This document shows, piece after piece, positions 22,279 through 32,523 of a stretch of 46,307 bases of DNA (the stretch's first letter is position 1; each line of letters starts with the position of its first letter). The stretch is taken from NCBI GenBank assembly GCA_012841625.1, contig DUUI01000019.1, positions 1 through 46,307 of the forward strand, read 5' to 3'. Origin of the DNA: Erysipelothrix sp. (GTDB lineage: Bacteria > Bacillota_I > Bacilli_A > Erysipelotrichales > Erysipelotrichaceae). The notes under the pieces were generated by a model. That model was not told where the DNA came from. It searched no databases and saw only the letters and a program-made list of their open reading frames with translations. A program made the translations under genes and the position numbers.

Positions 22279-22300
22279 AGCTTTAATTGACATTAAAGCT
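22279..22300. promoter_or_regulatory. Inverted repeat over the MFS promoter -35 box
   Basis: Perfect 9-bp arms AGCTTTAAT (22279-22287) and ATTAAAGCT (22292-22300) with spacer TGAC. The repeat covers the -35 hexamer, so a repressor bound here would block the promoter. No regulator gene is adjacent apart from the broken one. Confidence 0.55.
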
Positions 22301-22314
22301 AGTTGTTTTATAAT
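22287..22314 (+). promoter_or_regulatory. Consensus sigma-A promoter of the MFS gene
   Basis: TTGACA (22287-22292), 16-nt spacer, TATAAT (22309-22314): both hexamers are perfect. The expected start is near 22321. Confidence 0.8.
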
Positions 22315-22325
22315 TTAAGTGTAGT

Positions 22326-22350
22326 AAACCCACATGATTTGTGGGTTTTT
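22326..22350 (+). terminator. Terminator-like hairpin in the MFS leader
   Basis: Stem AAACCCAC (22326-22333) with GTGGGTTT (22341-22348), then more T. It begins about 5 nt after the predicted transcript start and ends 18 nt before the MFS start codon, so it may attenuate this gene, cap its 5' end, or insulate it from upstream transcription. Confidence 0.65.
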
Positions 22351-22367
22351 AGATAGATGAGGGAAGC

Positions 22368-23546
22368 ATGAGATTTCTAAAGAAGAATACTGTGATATTG
22401 TTTATATTATTAGCAGCGATACAATCCGTTTTTAATAATATGGTCCATCCAGTGACACCCGCCTTTATTCATCACCTTGAACTAAACGATTATATGTTTG
22501 GGGTTGCTTATGCGTCAATGAACTTAATGATGTTTATCTCTTCGTTTTATTGGGGCGATGCCAGCAATAAGATGAAAATGAGCCACATTCTTCTTATCTC
22601 ACTCGTTGGTTATGCGCTAGCTCAAATAGTTTTTATGATGGCTACAACTCAGTGGCAAATTATTTTAGGTCGTCTTTTAGCAGGAGCATTTTCAGGAGGT
22701 TTTTTGGTAGGTCAGATGAATTTTATTGTTAACCAAAGCACTCTAGAAACTCGGGGTAAAAATTTGGCCAATTACTCCATCTCCATGATTGTTGCTTCAA
22801 CAGGAGGGTATCTAATAGGTGGATTAATTGGAGATATCAATTTGTATTATCCATTTATTCTTCAAATCATTTCTTTAATTATCTTAGGAGTGGTTAATTA
22901 TGTGTTTCTTAGTATTACTCAAAATGAAATCATCTCTAACGGTGTAAAAAGGATAAACCCATTTAAGTCAATGAAGTATTCGATTAATCATTTAGACTCT
23001 CTAGGAAAACTTGTTTTTGTCAGTATTTTCTTTGCGTGGATGGCCAATATTGTTTTTGATAATAGTTTTAATTACTACATTCGAGACATGCTGAATTATC
23101 CCCCAAGTGCTAATGGTATTTTGAAGGCCATCATCGGAGTCTTTACACTCATTAGTAACTTAACGCTAACTTATTATTTACTCAATAAGACTAAAATAAC
23201 AAAATCAATGATGTCGATAACGCTCTTTGCTAGTATGGTTATTATGGTGATAATCTTTAATTCGCATGAGTTCGTATTCTTAGGTCTATCACTCCTTGTT
23301 TTAGGAGCATTCTCGATTATTCAACCCCTACAACAAACCTCAGTCTCACTACTTTCTGAGGACGCTGCCGCAGTCAACCACTTAATGGGTTTCTATAACG
23401 CGATTAAATCACTCGCAGCCATTATTGGATCACTCTTAGCTGGATTTATTTATGGTGTATACCCAAGTGGACCATTTGTCTTAGCCCTAGTCCTAATAAT
23501 TGTTGCTTTTATCAGCCTAGTTAGCTATGAAAGGAATTCAGTATGA
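22368..23546 (+). CDS. MFS transporter (DHA-like drug/solute exporter)
   Basis: Major facilitator of 392 residues with about twelve hydrophobic helices. The region after TM2 (SSFYWGDASNKMKMSHIL) occupies the loop 2-3 motif position but is poorly conserved (G-D-A-S-N-K instead of G-x-L-a-D-r). TM4 carries LGRLLAGAFSGGF, and TM5 the SMIVASTGGYLIGGLIGD motif C-like block seen in antiporters. This points to an efflux-type carrier, substrate unknown. The ribosome site GAGGGAAG is at 22358-22365. Expressed from a perfect promoter overlapped by a repeat, so probably regulated. The stop overlaps the next gene by 4 nt. Confidence 0.9.
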   Translation: MRFLKKNTVILFILLAAIQSVFNNMVHPVTPAFIHHLELNDYMFGVAYASMNLMMFISSFYWGDASNKMKMSHILLISLVGYALAQIVFMMATTQWQIILGRLLAGAFSGGFLVGQMNFIVNQSTLETRGKNLANYSISMIVASTGGYLIGGLIGDINLYYPFILQIISLIILGVVNYVFLSITQNEIISNGVKRINPFKSMKYSINHLDSLGKLVFVSIFFAWMANIVFDNSFNYYIRDMLNYPPSANGILKAIIGVFTLISNLTLTYYLLNKTKITKSMMSITLFASMVIMVIIFNSHEFVFLGLSLLVLGAFSIIQPLQQTSVSLLSEDAAAVNHLMGFYNAIKSLAAIIGSLLAGFIYGVYPSGPFVLALVLIIVAFISLVSYERNSV

Positions 23547-24256
23547 ATTATTATCAAGAAATAGAACAAAAAATCAAAGAGAATATGGACTCACAAAACT
23601 ATCAAGATGCACTAGAACTCATCGAAAGCGAACTATCAATGCCGTATATTCCACAAGATTTACAAGAAAAACTAGAAGAATGGCATAAAGAATGTTTAAC
23701 ACAACTCGATCAAAATCCAGCATATGCTTTAAGTTTTGAAGTAATTAGTCAATGGCTCTTTGACATTGACCCAATAAAAGTTGAGTCAGCTTTGTTAGGA
23801 CTCAAAGACATTAATTTAAGGAATTATATCGATGATATTCAAAAACTGTTAGAACATCATCCAGACCGTTTGGTTCAATCATTTATTTTACTAGAATGTA
23901 TAAATCAAGAAATCGACACAACCTTCAAGTTTAATAAGTTTGGGCTAGACTATGAAGTCAACCCTATCTACATTGAACATCCAATAGAAACAGATGGCTA
24001 TCAAATAGCTAGTCAAAAGCTATCTGAGATTACATTCAAAGAGCCAAGTCTTAATGAATTAGTCCAACAATTACTGATTGGTGAAGTTATTGAAGCGTTA
24101 CCAAATTCTTATGACGAATTAGAGGGTGAAATGTTGGCTTATAGCATCTTTAAAGAAGGCTTGAGACTATTAAATCGCGACTCAGAATGGTATAATTTTA
24201 CAGTTGAACAAAATATAAAAGAAGAACGCTGTCCGACCTTGTTTAGCACTCTTTAA
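23543..24256 (+). CDS. DUF3196-like acidic helical protein
   Basis: A soluble 237-residue protein, strongly acidic and almost all helical, with TPR-like helix pairs (QNYQDALELIESELSMPYIP at the start). It resembles DUF3196 proteins, which occur mostly in Mollicutes and Erysipelotrichia; I cannot confirm this without a profile search. No function is known to me. It overlaps the MFS gene by 4 nt with AAAGGAA as ribosome site. Its last codons form the left arm of the CIRCE element controlling tig. The closeness to trigger factor and lon hints at, but does not show, a protein-quality role. Confidence 0.72.
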   Translation: MNYYQEIEQKIKENMDSQNYQDALELIESELSMPYIPQDLQEKLEEWHKECLTQLDQNPAYALSFEVISQWLFDIDPIKVESALLGLKDINLRNYIDDIQKLLEHHPDRLVQSFILLECINQEIDTTFKFNKFGLDYEVNPIYIEHPIETDGYQIASQKLSEITFKEPSLNELVQQLLIGEVIEALPNSYDELEGEMLAYSIFKEGLRLLNRDSEWYNFTVEQNIKEERCPTLFSTL

Positions 24257-24269
24257 TTGACAGTGCTAA
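24243..24269. promoter_or_regulatory. CIRCE operator (HrcA-binding site)
   Basis: TTAGCACTC (24243-24251), exactly 9 nt, CAGTGCTAA (24261-24269). The CIRCE consensus is TTAGCACTC-N9-GAGTGCTAA; only one base differs. The element spans the end of the preceding gene and covers the -35 box of the tig promoter, a position that would repress it. HrcA is known to release CIRCE on heat or unfolded-protein stress. Confidence 0.9.
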
Positions 24270-24284
24270 CAGATATGGTATAAT
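24257..24284 (+). promoter_or_regulatory. Sigma-A promoter of tig-lon-ysxC
   Basis: TTGACA (24257-24262), 16-nt spacer, TATAAT (24279-24284), both perfect hexamers; the -35 lies inside the CIRCE element. Confidence 0.85.
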
Positions 24285-24307
24285 GAGGCAGACTTAGGAG
24301 GAAAATC

Positions 24308-25570
24308 ATGAAATCAACATGGCAAAAGGAAGAAAAAACACTAACCGTAACAATTGATGGAGAGGCTTGGCAAGAAGCTCAAGAAAAAGCATTTAAAAAA
24401 CTTGCAAAGGATGAAACTGTCCCAGGATTCAGAAAAGGGAAAGCTCCAGAAGCAATGTTACGCAAACAAATATCACAACAAGCAATTATGATGGACGCAG
24501 TCAATGAAGCCATTCAAGATATGTATACCTATGGATTAGACACTGAACAAGTAGTCTCAGTGGCTCAACCAGAAGTAGACGTCAAATCACTCACAAATGA
24601 TGAAATGACGATTGAATTTGTTTTAGAACCATATCCAGAAGTGACACTAGACGCTCAATATAAAGACCTTAAAGTCGAAATTGAAGAAGTCGAAGTCACA
24701 GACGATGAAGTAGATCATCAAATTGAACATCTTCAAGAAGATATGGCACAATGGGTTCTAAAAGAAGAAGGTGTAATAGAAGAAGGTAATAAAGTGGTTC
24801 TTGATTACACTGGATTTAAAGGTGAAGAACAATTTGAAGGTGGGTCAGCAGAAAATGCTGAGCTTGAAATTGGTTCAAACTCATTTATCCCAGGTTTTGA
24901 AGAACAATTAATCGGAGTTGCTTCAGGAGAGTCAAAAGATTTAAATCTTACATTCCCAGAAGATTATCCGGCTGAAGATTTAAAAGGGCAAGAAGTTGTA
25001 TTTAAGACAACTGTTCATGAGATTCGTGAAAAAGTCCTACCAGAACTTAACGATGAATTCGCAAAAGAAGTAGACGAAGAAGAAGTCGAAACATTAGAAC
25101 AATTAAAAGAAAGTGTCAAAGAAAAACTTTTAGTTGAAAAACAAAATGCTGCTAAAGAAGCTGGTGAAAATAAATTAATAGAAAAAGTAATCGAATTTGC
25201 TGAAGTCGATATTCCACAAGTCATGATTGATAATGAATCTCAAGTCTTATTGTCAGAATTCCAACAACAACTTTCTCAACAAGGTTTAAACTTTGATTTA
25301 TACAAACAAATCTTAGGCCAAACTGATGAAGATGTGATGGCACAAATTACACCAGACGCTCAAAAGCGTGTCCTATATCGTCTTGTCATGGAAGAGGTTG
25401 CTAAGCAAGAAGGCTTAGAAGCAACTGATGAAGATGTCGAAAACGAATATAAGAATATCAGTGAAACATATCAAATTGAACTTGAACAAGTTAAAGCAAT
25501 GGCAGCTAAAGAAGACATTGCCCATGATGTAAAACTTAAGAAAGCAGTCGATTTGTTGTTATCTCGATAG
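24308..25570 (+). CDS. tig: Trigger factor
   Basis: Ribosome-bound chaperone and peptidyl-prolyl isomerase, 420 residues. The N-terminal ribosome-binding domain carries the signature VPGFRKGKAPEAMLRKQ (ribosomal L23 contact). An FKBP-type PPIase domain lies near residues 150-235 (VVLDYTGFKGEEQFEGG, IGSNSFIPGFEEQLIG), and a long helical substrate-binding C-domain completes it. The ribosome site is TTAGGAGG at about 24295-24302. It has a consensus promoter under a CIRCE site, unusual for tig. lon starts 27 nt downstream with no terminator between. Confidence 0.97.
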   Translation: MKSTWQKEEKTLTVTIDGEAWQEAQEKAFKKLAKDETVPGFRKGKAPEAMLRKQISQQAIMMDAVNEAIQDMYTYGLDTEQVVSVAQPEVDVKSLTNDEMTIEFVLEPYPEVTLDAQYKDLKVEIEEVEVTDDEVDHQIEHLQEDMAQWVLKEEGVIEEGNKVVLDYTGFKGEEQFEGGSAENAELEIGSNSFIPGFEEQLIGVASGESKDLNLTFPEDYPAEDLKGQEVVFKTTVHEIREKVLPELNDEFAKEVDEEEVETLEQLKESVKEKLLVEKQNAAKEAGENKLIEKVIEFAEVDIPQVMIDNESQVLLSEFQQQLSQQGLNFDLYKQILGQTDEDVMAQITPDAQKRVLYRLVMEEVAKQEGLEATDEDVENEYKNISETYQIELEQVKAMAAKEDIAHDVKLKKAVDLLLSR

Positions 25571-25597
25571 TATAGTACTCTAACGAAAGGAGCCACT

Positions 25598-27913
25598 ATG
25601 AGTAAAAAAATAGAAATAAATGTACCTGTAATCGCAACTCGAGGGGTCATTGTTTTCCCTAAACAAGACATTATGATCGAAGTCGGTCGTCCTAAGAGCA
25701 TGAATGCGATAGAAGAAGCCCAGTCATTTTACAATGGGCATGTTTGGCTCGTCTCTCAAAGGGATATAATGATAGATGATCCAACAGAATCGGATTTATA
25801 TACAGTAGGAACACTTGCTCAAGTAAAGCGTGTCCGCAAAAAAGATGGCTTTATGCGCGTCACATTCTCTGGTCTTGAGCGTGCTCAATTAATGGAACTA
25901 ACTGAAGATTCACGAATGATGTACGCAAAGGTTCTACCACTCATTGACCGCCAAGGCAATGAAATGGAAGAAATGGCCTTAGTTCGCAGAATTACTCGTG
26001 AACTTGAAAATATAGCCGCTCATAATGCTAACTTCCCATCTGAAGTCATTACACAAATGGCTAAGGGTGTTCAAGCACCACAGCTGGCTGACCAATTTGC
26101 TCAATTTTTTCCACTACCATTCCATAAGAAACAAGCACTTTTAGAGCAGCTTGATGTGAATGAAAGAATGCTCATGATTATTGCTGACTTAAACACAGAA
26201 AAACAACTGTCAAACATTGAAAATGAAATCAATGAAAAAGTCAGAGAACGTGTTGAAGAAAGTCAACGTGAGTATTACTTAAGAGAGAAAATGCGTGCTA
26301 TTAAAGAGGAACTAGGTGATGTTGCATCAACCGGCGACGATGTTGAAGATCTTCGCGAAATGATTGAAAACAATCCTTATCCTGAAAATATTAAAGAAAA
26401 AGCACTTGATGAACTTCATCGTTATGAAATGTTGCCACAAGCAGCAGGAGAATCAGGAGTTATTCGTAACTATTTAGATTGGTTACTAAAAACACCATGG
26501 TATCAAGAATCTCAAGACAATGAAGATCTAACAGCAGTCCGTAAAGTCTTAGACGAAGACCACTTCGGATTAGACAAGGTAAAAGACCGTATTATGGAAT
26601 ACCTCGCGGTCAAACAACAGACTAAATCACTTAAAGCACCAATCCTATGTTTAGTAGGTCCTCCAGGAGTTGGTAAGACGTCACTCGCTAAATCAATCGC
26701 AAGAGCATTAGACCGTAGATTTGTTAAAGCAAGTTTAGGTGGGGTGCGCGATGAAGCAGAGATAAGAGGACATAGACGTACTTATTTAGGTGCATTACCA
26801 GGACGTTTTATTCAAGGAATGAAGAAAGCTGGCGTAATTAACCCAGTCTTCTTAATTGATGAATTAGATAAAATGGCAAGTGACTTTAGAGGTGACCCAG
26901 CTTCAGCAATGCTTGAAGTTTTAGATCCTGAACAAAACTATATGTTCTCAGATCACTATTTAGAAGAACCTTATGATTTAAGTAAAGTTATGTTTATTGC
27001 GACAGCAAACTATCTTGAAGATATTCCTGAAGCTTTACGTGACCGACTAGAAATCATTGAACTGTCTTCATATACTGAACAAGAAAAAGTTGAAATTGCT
27101 AAGCGTCATTTAGTCTCGAAACAATTAGGCCAAAATGGATTAAAAGCATCGCAATTCAGAATTAAAGATGATATTATCCTTTATATTATTAGACATTACA
27201 CTCGTGAAGCAGGGGTTCGTCAATTAGAAAGAATGATTGCCTCATTAGCTCGTAAAGCAGTCCTTGAACTTCTAACATCCGATAAGAAATCTACGACTAT
27301 TAGTAAAAAGCGTGTCCTTGACATGTTAGGTCGTGAGAAATTTGAATATGGTAAGAAGGAAAAAGAAAACCAGGTCGGTTTAGTTACCGGATTAGCTTAT
27401 ACTCAATTTGGTGGCGATGTATTGCCAATTGAAGTCACTACTTTTGAAGGTAAAGGACGCTTAATTCTTACTGGACGCTTAGGTGATGTGATGAAAGAAT
27501 CAGCTGAAATTGCTTTAGGATATGTAAAGAGCCATGCCCTAGACTTCAAGATTGATCCTAAATTCATGGAAACTCATGATATGCACATCCACGTGCCTGA
27601 AGGCGCAATTCCTAAGGATGGACCAAGTGCTGGTGTAACTTTAACAACCGCAATTGTTTCAGCATTAACTGATAAAAAAGTTGAAAGCAACTTAGCGATG
27701 ACAGGTGAAGTGACACTTCGTGGAAATGTTCTACCAATTGGGGGTCTGAAAGAGAAATCTTTAGCAGCCCATAGAGTAGGTATTGAAACTGTGATCATTC
27801 CAAAACAAAACGAGAAAGATTTAGAAGATGTCCCAGCAAGTGTGAAAGAGAAGATTAACTTCATTACAGTTGAGCGCATTGACCAAGTCTTAAAGGCAGC
27901 ACTAGAACAGTAA
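25598..27913 (+). CDS. lon: ATP-dependent protease Lon
   Basis: Soluble AAA+ protease that degrades misfolded and regulatory proteins, 771 residues. The N-domain covers residues 1-200, followed by a coiled helical arm. Walker A GPPGVGKT is at 354-361 and Walker B VFLIDELDK follows. The serine protease domain has Ser677 in KDGPSAGV and the dyad Lys720 in GGLKEK, 43 residues apart as in E. coli Lon. GAAAGGAG precedes ATG at good spacing. Downstream ysxC starts on the lon stop codon (TAATG). Co-transcription from the CIRCE promoter would make Lon heat-inducible. Confidence 0.97.
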   Translation: MSKKIEINVPVIATRGVIVFPKQDIMIEVGRPKSMNAIEEAQSFYNGHVWLVSQRDIMIDDPTESDLYTVGTLAQVKRVRKKDGFMRVTFSGLERAQLMELTEDSRMMYAKVLPLIDRQGNEMEEMALVRRITRELENIAAHNANFPSEVITQMAKGVQAPQLADQFAQFFPLPFHKKQALLEQLDVNERMLMIIADLNTEKQLSNIENEINEKVRERVEESQREYYLREKMRAIKEELGDVASTGDDVEDLREMIENNPYPENIKEKALDELHRYEMLPQAAGESGVIRNYLDWLLKTPWYQESQDNEDLTAVRKVLDEDHFGLDKVKDRIMEYLAVKQQTKSLKAPILCLVGPPGVGKTSLAKSIARALDRRFVKASLGGVRDEAEIRGHRRTYLGALPGRFIQGMKKAGVINPVFLIDELDKMASDFRGDPASAMLEVLDPEQNYMFSDHYLEEPYDLSKVMFIATANYLEDIPEALRDRLEIIELSSYTEQEKVEIAKRHLVSKQLGQNGLKASQFRIKDDIILYIIRHYTREAGVRQLERMIASLARKAVLELLTSDKKSTTISKKRVLDMLGREKFEYGKKEKENQVGLVTGLAYTQFGGDVLPIEVTTFEGKGRLILTGRLGDVMKESAEIALGYVKSHALDFKIDPKFMETHDMHIHVPEGAIPKDGPSAGVTLTTAIVSALTDKKVESNLAMTGEVTLRGNVLPIGGLKEKSLAAHRVGIETVIIPKQNEKDLEDVPASVKEKINFITVERIDQVLKAALEQ

Positions 27914-28482
27914 TGGCACACTTAGTTATTTCAGCGGCAAGTCCTAGTCAATTTCCAGAGACAGACCATCAAGAAGTAGTCTTTGTGGGTAAGTCGAATG
28001 TTGGTAAATCGACCTTAATTAATGGACTCAACAATCGAAAGAATCTAGCATATGTTGGGAAAACACCAGGGAAAACACGATTAGTTAACTTTTATGAAAT
28101 CAATGATCAGTTAATGATGGTGGATGTTCCAGGCTATGGTTACGCAAAACGTTCAACCAAAGAACAAACTATGTATGCAACTTTGATGGAACACTATTTT
28201 TCAAAACGTGACAACCTAAAAGGAATGATTCTAATCATGGACAGCCGTCGTGAGATAAGTGATGATGATTGGATGATGTTAGAGCTCGCCAAAGAGAAGA
28301 AACTAGCCACAGCGATTGCCTTAAGCAAAAGCAAAAAGCTTAGTTATTCTCAATTGAAACAAGCTCAAATGAACGTTCAAAATAAGGCCAAAGTTCCTGT
28401 CTATACCTTTGATTCAGATAGTTTTGAGTCATTTGAAGAAATCCAAAAACAAATACAATTATGGATTAACCCAGCTGAATAA
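27913..28482 (+). CDS. ysxC: Ribosome biogenesis GTPase YsxC/EngB
   Basis: Essential GTPase for late 50S subunit assembly, 189 residues. G1 GKSNVGKST is at 26-34, G2 is the Thr of GKTPGKTR, G3 is DVPGYG, and the G4 position reads LSKSKK, where many relatives have TKxDK: the usual Asp is absent, which is worth noting since G4 selects guanine. G5 is not obvious. The family fold is otherwise clear. It overlaps lon by 1 nt, the lon-ysxC order seen in many Bacillota. A strong terminator overlaps its last codons. Confidence 0.93.
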   Translation: MAHLVISAASPSQFPETDHQEVVFVGKSNVGKSTLINGLNNRKNLAYVGKTPGKTRLVNFYEINDQLMMVDVPGYGYAKRSTKEQTMYATLMEHYFSKRDNLKGMILIMDSRREISDDDWMMLELAKEKKLATAIALSKSKKLSYSQLKQAQMNVQNKAKVPVYTFDSDSFESFEEIQKQIQLWINPAE

Positions 28483-28496
28483 GCTGGGTTTTTTAA
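28468..28496 (+). terminator. Terminator of tig-lon-ysxC
   Basis: Stem AACCCAGCT (28468-28476) with AGCTGGGTT (28482-28490), 5-nt loop, followed by TTTT; it spans the ysxC stop codon. Confidence 0.85.
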
Positions 28497-28521
28497 TATA
28501 AAAACTTCTTTGATTTTAGGC

Positions 28522-28550
28522 TTGTCTTTTTTCTCGAAACTTACTACACT
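28522..28550 (+). promoter_or_regulatory. Promoter of phnW
   Basis: TTGTCT (28522-28527), 17-nt spacer, TACACT (28545-28550), just after the ysxC terminator. Confidence 0.55.
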
Positions 28551-28570
28551 ATTAGTAGGAGAAATTGATA

Positions 28571-29686
28571 ATGAAGAAACAACGAATGGTATTACTAAAC
28601 CCAGGTCCAGTCAATATGACTGAAACTATTCGTCAAGCTCAAATTGGCGAAGACATGTGCGCAAAAGAACAGGAATTTATTGATGTCCTAACTGAATTTA
28701 GACAAAAGTCATTAGAAGTATGTAAAGTGGATTTCAGCACTCATGATTCTGTGTTGTTTTCAGGGTCTGGAACTCTTTGCCAAGAGATTGCGGTGGTGTC
28801 GCTTTTACCAGAAAATAAGAAAGTATTAATGATTGAAAACGGGACATATTCTGCTAAAACAACGAAGATTCTAGAGGTGTTTAAATTACCTTTTATTCTA
28901 TATAAAGTAGACCCAACTCAAAACCCTGATTTAGAAGTTATTGAGCAATATTTAAAAGAAAATGATGATATAGGAGTTGTCTATTTAACACACCAAGAAA
29001 CAGGGACAGGCTTACTAAATCCAATAGAAAAAGTCGGTGAAATTGCCCATAAATATGGAGCCATTGTGATTGCTGATTGCATTTCTAGTTATGGACTAAT
29101 CCCAATTGATTTAAGCACAGGACATGTAGATGTTATCTTCTCAGGAACTCAAAAAGGCCTTTATGCACCAAGTGGTCTGTCATTTGTGATTGCACCAAAA
29201 GATTTAATTGAAGAAAGTGCGAATTATCCGGTACGGAATTATTATTCTAATTTATATGGACAATACGAAGGCTTTAAACGTCGTGGAGAAATGAGATTTA
29301 CAGCACCAGTTCAAACTGTCTATGCCTCGCTACAAGGATTAAATGAATTGCTTGAAGAGGGGATAGAGAATCGATACGAAAGAACCTCTAGTTTGTATCG
29401 ATATATTCAGAGAAAACTTAAACCATATGATTTTAAAGAAGTTATTGATGATGATAAACAAGGACATGTTGTTGTCTCAATTCATTATCCTGATTGGTTT
29501 GATTTTGACTTCATGAAATTACATGATTATTGTTATGAGCGAGGTTTTACACTCTTCCCAGCCGCAACAGGAATTCCTAAAACATTTAGGATTTCAGCGA
29601 TTGGCGCAATTGATGAAAGTGACATTGATGATTTCTTTGAAATTTTTGAAGAATTCTGGACTCAAGAAGGTTATCCGAAAGGATAA
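28571..29686 (+). CDS. phnW: 2-aminoethylphosphonate-pyruvate transaminase-like enzyme
   Basis: Class V PLP aminotransferase of 371 residues. The line NPGPVNMTETIRQAQIGEDM, the substrate-binding FSGSGT, the active-site Lys195 in SGTQKGL, and RNYYSNLY plus MRFTAPVQT all match PhnW, which turns 2-aminoethylphosphonate plus pyruvate into phosphonoacetaldehyde plus alanine. ATG 28571 is chosen because TAGGAG at 28556-28561 is spaced 9 nt from it; TTG 28565 is too close. It is a monocistronic gene with its own promoter and terminator. No phosphonatase (PhnX), phosphonopyruvate decarboxylase or transporter lies nearby, so direction and physiological role are open; a related C-terminal specificity, such as another amino donor, cannot be excluded. 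Confidence 0.82.
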   Translation: MKKQRMVLLNPGPVNMTETIRQAQIGEDMCAKEQEFIDVLTEFRQKSLEVCKVDFSTHDSVLFSGSGTLCQEIAVVSLLPENKKVLMIENGTYSAKTTKILEVFKLPFILYKVDPTQNPDLEVIEQYLKENDDIGVVYLTHQETGTGLLNPIEKVGEIAHKYGAIVIADCISSYGLIPIDLSTGHVDVIFSGTQKGLYAPSGLSFVIAPKDLIEESANYPVRNYYSNLYGQYEGFKRRGEMRFTAPVQTVYASLQGLNELLEEGIENRYERTSSLYRYIQRKLKPYDFKEVIDDDKQGHVVVSIHYPDWFDFDFMKLHDYCYERGFTLFPAATGIPKTFRISAIGAIDESDIDDFFEIFEEFWTQEGYPKG

Positions 29687-29696
29687 TCTTCTTTTA
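29664..29696 (+). terminator. Terminator of phnW
   Basis: Thirteen-base-pair stem (29664-29676 with 29681-29693, one G-T pair), GAAA tetraloop, then T-rich sequence; it spans the phnW stop codon. Confidence 0.8.
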
Positions 29697-29716
29697 TGAA
29701 ATTTCCACTTGCTTTA

Positions 29717-29725
29717 TGCTATAAT
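29717..29725 (+). promoter_or_regulatory. Extended -10 promoter of the valS leader
   Basis: TGCTATAAT at 29717-29725, a perfect extended -10; no clear -35. Confidence 0.6.
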
Positions 29726-29729
29726 AATG

Positions 29730-29935
29730 TCAAGTCAAAATGAATAAGGAGTAAACAAGCATTAGCTTTCAGAGACATAGTGGGTGGTGAAAACTATGAG
29801 TAAACTTGTTGAAAGTCGTATTCTAGGATATTAGTCTGAAATGTTTCAGTAGGATTAATCGTTGGTGGCGTTAACACAATGAGTAACAACTAAGGTGGTA
29901 CCACGTTAATGACGTCCTTATGGAGGTCTTTTTTT
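29730..29935 (+). promoter_or_regulatory. T-box riboswitch, valine
   Basis: Leader that lets valS be read only when uncharged tRNA-Val binds. The conserved T-box AAGGTGGTACCACG is at 29892-29905. Stem I is closed by TTTCAGA and TCTGAAA and carries GGTGGTGAAAAC. The terminator GACGTCC (29911-29917) with GGAGGTC (29922-29928) plus a T-run overlaps the antiterminator side. GTC at 29815-29817 is the best specifier candidate, with GTA right after it as an alternative; both encode Val. Confidence 0.93.
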
Positions 29936-29955
29936 ATTCTCAAGGAGGAGATTTG

Positions 29956-32523
29956 ATGGAACTAAAAACAAAATATAACCCACAAGAAGTCGAAGCAGGG
30001 CTCTATGAAAAGTGGATCGAAGCAGGCTACTTTACAGCCGGAGACATCAGTAAAGAACCCTACAGCATTGTTATCCCTCCACCAAATGTCACAGGTCACT
30101 TACATCTAGGACATGCATGGGATAATACCATACAAGATATTTTAGCTAGATATGCTCGTTTACAAAATAAAGATGTCCTATATTTACCAGGAATGGACCA
30201 TGCTGGAATCGCAACCCAAGCTAAAGTCGTCGAACGCCTAAAAGAAATGGGAATCGATGCCCGTTCCATAGGCCGTGATGCTTTCTTAGAACATGCATGG
30301 GATTGGAAAGAAGAATACTCCAAAACAATTCGCAGCCAATGGGCAAAATTTGGTCTATCTTTAGATTATACTCGAGAACGTTTTACTTTGGATGAAGGGC
30401 TCAATAATGCTGTCAACAAAGTATTTGTTAAGCTCTTTGAAGAAGGTTTAATCTTTAGAGGTAAACGAATAATTAACTGGGATCCACAAGCTCAAACAGC
30501 ATTAAGTAATATTGAAGTTATCCATAAAGAAATTCAAGGTAAGTTCTATACCTTCAAATATCCAATCGAAAAAACAGATGAATCATTAGAAGTTGCCACA
30601 ACACGACCAGAAACAATGTTTGGTGATGTTTGTGTTGTCGTCCACCCTGAAGATAAACGCTATACTCACTTAATTGGTAAAAGAGCACTAAACCCAGCCA
30701 ATCATGAATATATACCAATCATTGCTGATGAGTATGTTGAACTAGGCTTTGGGACAGGTGCCATGAAATGTACACCAGCCCATGATCCAAATGACTTTGA
30801 ATTGGGACAAAAACATAATCTCGACATGCCAATCTGTATGAACCTAGATGGCACTATGAATGAATTAGCTGGTGAATATGATGGAATGGACCGCTTTGAC
30901 TGTCGAAAAGCATTAGTTAAACGAATTGAAACAGAAGGCCATTTAGTTGAAATTAAGGAGCATGTCCATGAAGTTGGACACTCTGAAAGAACCGATGTTA
31001 TTGTTGAACCAACATTATCAGAACAATGGTTTGTCAAAATGGAGCCATTAGCACATGCTGTTTTAGAGCAACAAAATAGTAATGATAAGATTAATTTCTA
31101 TCCAAACCGCTTTGAGAGAGTCTTTACACAATGGTTAGAAAATATAGAAGACTGGACTATTTCTCGTCAATTATGGTGGGGTCACCGTATTCCAGCCTAT
31201 ACCCATAATGAAACAGGTGAATTAGTTGTTAGTGAAGAACCACCAGTCGATCTTGAAAACTACACACAAGACCCAGATGTTTTGGACACATGGTTTAGCA
31301 GTGCTTTATGGCCATTTTCAACCCTAGGTTGGCCAGAAGAAACACTAGACTTAGACCGCTATTACCCAAATAGTGTCCAAGCAACAGGGTATGATATCAT
31401 TTTATTTTGGGTTGTTAGGATGGCATTTCAGGGATTGCATTTCTTAGATGAAAAACCATTTAATGATGTAATCATTCACGGTTTAATTCGTGATGAACTC
31501 GGACGCAAAATCTCAAAATCATTAGGCAATGGACGTGATCCAATTGAGTTGATTGAAGAATATGGAGCAGATGCTCTGCGATATTTCTTAGTCACAAACT
31601 CATCACCTGGTCAAGATTTGAGATATTCCGATGAGAAATTAGGAGCCGCGTGGAATTTTATTAATAAGATTTATAATTCAACTCGATATGTTCAAATGAC
31701 ATTAGGAGCAGACTTTGGATTAGAAGATGTAGACCTAAGTGATTTAACACTCATAGATGAATGGATTCTAGCGAAGTTTAATACGATGAATAAGTATTAT
31801 CAAGAACATATGGAGATCTACGACTTTTTATCAATTGGTGATAAACTCTATAAATTCATTTGGGATGATTTTTGTTCTTGGTATTTAGAATTTACAAAAA
31901 CTCAAACAGGAACTTCAACCAAATCAACTTTATTTATTGTGTTACAAGGAATCATCAAGATGATATCACCATTTATGCCATTTGTTTCTGAACATTTATA
32001 TTTAACTCTTCCACACGAAAAAGAATCGATCAATTTAGAGTTGTGGCCAGAGCTGATTGATAATGTGGAAGAAAAAGATGAAGTCGATGAAGTAATTGAA
32101 ATTATTGAAGCCATTAGAACAACTCGTGTTGATTTTAATATTAAGCATAAAGTTGAATTAATTGGCCATTTGAATCATCCTATTGATGAAAGCTTTAAAG
32201 ATATGATATTGAAGATGGCCAAAACAAGAATGGTCGATGACTTAGAAGCAGACAGTGTTGTGATTCCACTTAAGAATTCAATCTTTAAGATTGATAAGGA
32301 AAATCTAATCGACATTGAAGCTGAAATTGAAAAACTTAAGAATCAAGTTAAATTCTTTAATGCAGAGGTTAAACGAGCCAAAGGGATGCTTTCCAATAAA
32401 AACTTTATCGAAAAGGCTCCAAAAGAAAAAGTGGATGCAGAGAAAAAGAAATTAGCAGAATATCAACAACAATTAGAGGTCTGTCTATCTCAATTAGAAG
32501 ATATGACTACCAATCAGGCCTGA
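29956..32523 (+). CDS. valS: Valyl-tRNA synthetase
   Basis: Class I synthetase charging tRNA-Val, 855 residues. The HIGH motif is HLGH at 50-53, and the KMSKS motif is KISKS at 518-522. The CP1 editing domain lies between (TTRPETMFGD, GTGAMKCTPAHDPNDFELG). The anticodon-binding domain follows, and a C-terminal coiled coil (about 790-850) contacts the tRNA, as in other ValRS. ATG 29956 follows AAGGAGGAG; upstream in-frame codons lie within the T-box terminator. ppdK starts 41 nt downstream without a clear terminator, so it may share this T-box transcript. Confidence 0.97.
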   Translation: MELKTKYNPQEVEAGLYEKWIEAGYFTAGDISKEPYSIVIPPPNVTGHLHLGHAWDNTIQDILARYARLQNKDVLYLPGMDHAGIATQAKVVERLKEMGIDARSIGRDAFLEHAWDWKEEYSKTIRSQWAKFGLSLDYTRERFTLDEGLNNAVNKVFVKLFEEGLIFRGKRIINWDPQAQTALSNIEVIHKEIQGKFYTFKYPIEKTDESLEVATTRPETMFGDVCVVVHPEDKRYTHLIGKRALNPANHEYIPIIADEYVELGFGTGAMKCTPAHDPNDFELGQKHNLDMPICMNLDGTMNELAGEYDGMDRFDCRKALVKRIETEGHLVEIKEHVHEVGHSERTDVIVEPTLSEQWFVKMEPLAHAVLEQQNSNDKINFYPNRFERVFTQWLENIEDWTISRQLWWGHRIPAYTHNETGELVVSEEPPVDLENYTQDPDVLDTWFSSALWPFSTLGWPEETLDLDRYYPNSVQATGYDIILFWVVRMAFQGLHFLDEKPFNDVIIHGLIRDELGRKISKSLGNGRDPIELIEEYGADALRYFLVTNSSPGQDLRYSDEKLGAAWNFINKIYNSTRYVQMTLGADFGLEDVDLSDLTLIDEWILAKFNTMNKYYQEHMEIYDFLSIGDKLYKFIWDDFCSWYLEFTKTQTGTSTKSTLFIVLQGIIKMISPFMPFVSEHLYLTLPHEKESINLELWPELIDNVEEKDEVDEVIEIIEAIRTTRVDFNIKHKVELIGHLNHPIDESFKDMILKMAKTRMVDDLEADSVVIPLKNSIFKIDKENLIDIEAEIEKLKNQVKFFNAEVKRAKGMLSNKNFIEKAPKEKVDAEKKKLAEYQQQLEVCLSQLEDMTTNQA

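Follow-up and report, generated by a model that had tools for sequence, protein, structure and literature searches.

The window analysed here, a stretch of 46,307 nucleotides from Erysipelothrix sp., a small gut-type Firmicute of the order Erysipelotrichales, corresponds to contig 76 in an assembly of 1.37 Mb that is 97% complete and consists of 85 contigs. Its central genes are tig (24308..25570, + strand), which encodes a trigger factor of 420 aa with Trigger_N, FKBP_C and Trigger_C domains (TIGR00115, 378 bits), lon, encoding the ATP-dependent protease La (25598..27913, +; 771 aa; TIGR00763, 937 bits), and ysxC/engB, encoding a ribosome-biogenesis GTPase (27913..28482, +; 189 aa; TIGR03598, 189 bits). 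Judged by curated sequence models, each of which was exceeded at its cut-off, the identities of all three can be taken as certain. Among named organisms, Erysipelotrichaceae have the trigger factors most closely related to this one. There are 27 nt between tig and lon, lon and ysxC overlap by 1 nt, and a terminator-like hairpin of 9 pairs with a T tail (28468..28490, +; a pattern match only) overlaps the ysxC stop, and co-transcription through ysxC is probable. The gene 5′ of tig encodes a DUF3196 protein (PF11428; 23543..24256, +; 237 aa), and its final codons and stop extend into the regulatory element described below.

A CIRCE operator lies in front of tig (24243..24269, +; arms 24243–24251 and 24261–24269), recognised by sequence match and by its conservation in relatives. 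It reads TTAGCACTC-TTTAATTGA-CAGTGCTAA and agrees with the consensus TTAGCACTC-N9-GAGTGCTAA at 17/18 arm bases. The first-pass annotation had scored it as a '26 of 27' match; the CIRCE itself stands, but the count is better given as 17/18, since the 9-nt centre of the element is unspecified. Published CIRCE scans allow up to 2 mismatches (PMC4245973), and this site has 1/18 arm bases off. It is the sole CIRCE match at ≤3 mismatches in the 46 kb window, against a chance expectation of 0.01. The lone arm mismatch, a G to C change at 24261, supplies the fifth base of a −35 box, TTGACA (24257..24262, +), which lies inside CIRCE and is completed by this base. After a spacer of 16 nt follows an extended −10 element (24276..24284, +), made up of TG at 24276–24277 and TATAAT at 24279–24284. 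All 12/12 promoter positions are matched, making this the top promoter-like site in 22300–30100, and the earlier description of CIRCE lying across the −35 box of a perfect sigma-A promoter for tig-lon-ysxC is borne out. Transcription is predicted to start at ~24291, and the ribosome-binding site of tig, AGGAGG (24296..24301, +), can be read directly in the sequence. Because the repeat is upstream of the predicted start, CIRCE would act at the DNA level, and the alternative of a hairpin in the transcript was set aside.

We consider the site to be, with a probability of roughly 0.87 judged from sequence, an HrcA operator fused with the sigma-A promoter of a tig-lon-ysxC operon. In cells at normal temperature, the inverted repeat would be occupied by an HrcA dimer that covers the −35 box and keeps RNA polymerase out. 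Upon heat or other protein-folding stress, HrcA activity would be lost, and the levels of trigger factor, Lon and YsxC would increase in step with those of DnaK/DnaJ/GrpE, ClpB, HtpG and two small heat-shock proteins. From the behaviour of the HrcA family, binding and repression by HrcA and induction by heat would be predicted at tig.

The genome does encode HrcA (TIGR00331, 292.7 bits against a cut-off of 197.2; PF01628, 5.7e-44), and the assembly contains seven CIRCE sites, the tig site and six more, with targets assigned by gene content. One precedes hrcA-grpE-dnaK-dnaJ (C54:13880), with the hrcA start ~51 nt past the site, and hence the hrcA gene is itself preceded by CIRCE, as in autoregulated HrcA regulons. 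Tandem pairs precede clpB (C54:18972 and 19056) and two adjacent hsp20 genes (C59:2465 and 2511), in each case with one site over the −35 box and the other in the 5′ untranslated region. The remaining site, before htpG (Hsp90; C77:15976–16002, locus L012), is immediately 5′ of the ribosome-binding site, a layout that differs from the other CIRCE promoters of the genome. Four promoters, those of hrcA, clpB, hsp20 and tig, have a composite layout in common, TTAGCACTC-N5-TTGACA-GTGCTAA-(9-10 nt)-TATA(A/C)T, and the placing of tig in the HrcA regulon therefore draws on a module shared with the textbook targets as well as on the repeat. The first-pass proposal of HrcA heat-shock control over trigger factor, Lon and YsxC is thus supported by the presence of hrcA, by the conserved repeat and by a layout matching that at hrcA, clpB and hsp20.

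GroEL is the classic modulator of HrcA in the Bacillus subtilis model. No GroEL/Cpn60 (PF00118) was detected in the assembly (97% complete, 85 contigs), despite HrcA and the seven CIRCE sites. The genus has one other genome, in which GroEL does occur, and a DNA search with the groEL region of that sister genome gave short matches only, which were taken as tRNA-like. An assembly gap is just as likely as a true loss of groEL, because the upstream neighbour gene of groEL in the sister genome is also missing from the assembly. GroEL is also absent from four genomes in which HrcA is kept (G004, G012, G017 and G020).

Conservation was assessed in 113 Erysipelotrichales genomes, 75 from family f1 and 38 from family f2, with CIRCE accepted at ≤2 mismatches. 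In nearly all of them lon follows tig, and ysxC comes next in most loci with enough downstream sequence. CIRCE is found ≤400 bp before tig in 42/113 genomes (22/75 in f1 and 20/38 in f2). In 8 more it is located 709–871 bp upstream of tig, before the DUF3196 gene, and in 1 genome it lies between tig and lon (at +1320, before lon). The 44.5 kb before tig contain 43 hits, and the other 513 kb of the loci contain 9. Even these 9 are not random, since they fall either before DUF3196 (−709 to −871) or before lon (+1320); shuffled upstream sequence gave 0 hits. The first-pass annotation called a CIRCE operon headed by tig unusual, yet it is not a one-off, recurring in about a third of the sampled Erysipelotrichales. 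The wiring is nonetheless dispensable, since 62/113 genomes have no CIRCE within reach of the block although nearly all have HrcA (found in 106/108 genomes of the order). When up to ~4 kb upstream was scanned in 20 genomes without a site, one CIRCE was found, ~1 kb before tig in G074. Two genomes of the same family, G062 and G016, have neither trigger factor nor HrcA detected. Mycoplasmas have a single site in the interval from tig to lon; in one Erysipelotrichales locus (L196, genome G091) this interval holds two CIRCE-like sites. Among named records, CIRCE precedes tig in an Erysipelothrix MAG (at −65), in two Solobacterium MAGs, each with two sites, and in Longibaculum muris (at −91), while the other named Bacilli and Clostridia among 80 loci have none ≤400 bp before tig. 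One record labelled Chryseobacterium sp. ISL-80 (L089, JAGGQZ010000003.1) has a Bacillales-like trigger factor and is probably mislabelled.

Three promoter layouts (a, b and c) are seen among the genomes with CIRCE before tig. Layout a, in 17 f1 genomes including that of the window, has the −35 box inside CIRCE and the site ~65 bp before tig, and CIRCE precedes tig in all 17 rows of this group. In layout b, found in genus g42 and in G051, CIRCE occurs once or twice between −117 and −166. In layout c, found in 20 f2 genomes, CIRCE is at about −91 and ends 4–6 bp upstream of a TTGCAW −35 box, so the mode of repression may differ there; it mostly falls in the last codons of the upstream gene. In six f2 loci (L242, L030, L036, L040, L041 and L042) these are the last codons of a DUF3196-like gene (LALKxIE-stop), and the f2 upstream protein falls below PF11428 in the Pfam scan, yet matches the DUF3196 protein of the window by BLASTP (6e-10). 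The arms of layout a (17 genomes, 16 profiled) have a mean top-base frequency of 0.98, against 0.48 over the 60 bases upstream, and those of layout c are 98% conserved against 63% for the 60 bases upstream.

On a tree built from the tig proteins, 1 change accounts for layout a (support 42, so that the clade is not firm), against 2 for layout c and 3 for layout b, while presence or absence of any site requires 11 changes, compared with 37 when labels are shuffled. This pattern is consistent with an operator that was inherited vertically and was gained, lost or shifted several times; the tree does not discriminate among these events. Read from sequence, the DUF3196-tig-lon block appears to have been put under HrcA at three entry points, with at least three promoter layouts. 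We regard as rather improbable a stronger version, in which the block was captured several times independently at these three entry points and HrcA works here without GroEL, its activity being set by a different chaperone loaded with clients, perhaps trigger factor or DnaK as a product of its own regulon.

The alternative that survives best is that HrcA binds with little effect, leaving the operon mostly constitutive, through read-through from MFS-DUF3196 or a promoter escaping repression, with a slight change on heat. The promoter is strong (12/12 with an extended −10), and no terminator was found in the window sequence between DUF3196 and tig, where upstream read-through could add HrcA-independent expression. 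In Mycoplasma pneumoniae, lon has both drivers, the tig promoter and a CIRCE site just upstream of lon (PMC7737663), and in M. gallisepticum the heat response of CIRCE promoters does not exceed that of many other promoters (PMC4245973). On the other hand, the repeat is near-invariant while its flanks have diverged, which suggests that repression matters, and HrcA promoters of Acholeplasma laidlawii rise ~100-fold on heat (PMC5138195); we judge a largely unresponsive operon to be unlikely, at about one chance in five. That the repeat arose incidentally from coding or promoter sequence, with no regulator involved, could be suspected from its overlap with the −35 box and with the DUF3196 gene, which ends at 24256, and from the f2 repeat often being in frame with LAL-x-x-IE. 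However, the DUF3196 gene enters the layout-a CIRCE in different frames among members, and in relatives several reading frames, or none, enter the site while the DNA is unchanged, which argues for selection on the DNA; a coding coincidence was rejected on these grounds. With CIRCE hits gone in shuffles and an identical module before known HrcA targets of the genome, this reading is very hard to sustain. Another repressor such as CtsR, which controls protease genes in B. subtilis (PMC8957991) and acts as main heat regulator of part of the protease genes in Bacilli, is still less credible as the main heat regulator of the operon, as neither CtsR nor a convincing CtsR box before tig was found in the genome.

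The HrcA operator thus appears to be a switch of a known kind, with tig-lon-ysxC as a recurrent, lineage-specific addition to the regulon. The main interest lies in the target, with trigger factor at its head, and in the shifting position of the operator along a fixed block. Trigger factor is usually regarded as a housekeeping chaperone. In this operon its gene comes first, followed by those of the main cytoplasmic protease and of a ribosome-assembly GTPase, all probably under a heat-shock repressor. As the first-pass annotation suggested, such wiring would couple folding at the ribosome, clean-up by proteolysis and ribosome assembly to one repressor and one signal. Comparison of Erysipelotrichales with mycoplasmas offers a rare view of an operator moving along a fixed gene block, and indicates that walled relatives have counterparts to the control of lon by HrcA seen in mycoplasmas. 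Among openly accessible papers, a search for a link between tig and CIRCE turned up only the M. pneumoniae lon case and reviews, and no description of tig-lon-ysxC as a CIRCE target in Erysipelotrichales was found, which is not proof of novelty.

Further families were examined for CIRCE around tig in a class-wide sample, and none had CIRCE before tig, bar one weak case (L295). In family f5, of Mycoplasma/Spiroplasma type, a CIRCE with 2 mismatches lies between tig and lon in 11/11 loci, and most of the f5 trigger factor genes read through TGA, like those of Mycoplasma and Spiroplasma. A degenerate but conserved repeat, TTGGCACTC-N9-GATTGCWAA, lies between tig and lon in families f11 (5/5) and f15 (1/2) (L303, L304, L315, L316, L320 and L344).

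The locus can be set beside three known systems. It shares its gene order with the tig-(clpX)-lon-ysxC cluster of Firmicutes, but no CIRCE was seen before tig in those named Bacilli and Clostridia that were sampled from beyond Erysipelotrichales. With the CIRCE/HrcA class I regulon of B. subtilis (hrcA-grpE-dnaK-dnaJ and groESL) it has in common the operator, the TIGR00331 repressor family and an autoregulated hrcA operon. The HrcA regulon of B. subtilis is limited to the dnaK and groE operons (PMC8957991), whereas here no groESL was found and sites also precede tig-lon-ysxC, clpB, hsp20-hsp20 and htpG. The third parallel is in Mollicutes (M. pneumoniae MPN332, M. gallisepticum and S. melliferum), which likewise have a (DUF3196-)tig-lon block, a CIRCE operator and Lon under HrcA. 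The M. pneumoniae gene directly preceding tig, MPN330, presumably encodes a DUF3196 protein. The first-pass statement that CIRCE precedes lon in Mycoplasma is correct, both for M. pneumoniae (PMC7737663) and for the Mycoplasma/Spiroplasma-type loci sampled here. The two arrangements differ in where the operator enters the block: in Mollicutes CIRCE stands between tig and lon and leaves tig out, whereas here it stands before tig, with tig, lon and ysxC all downstream.
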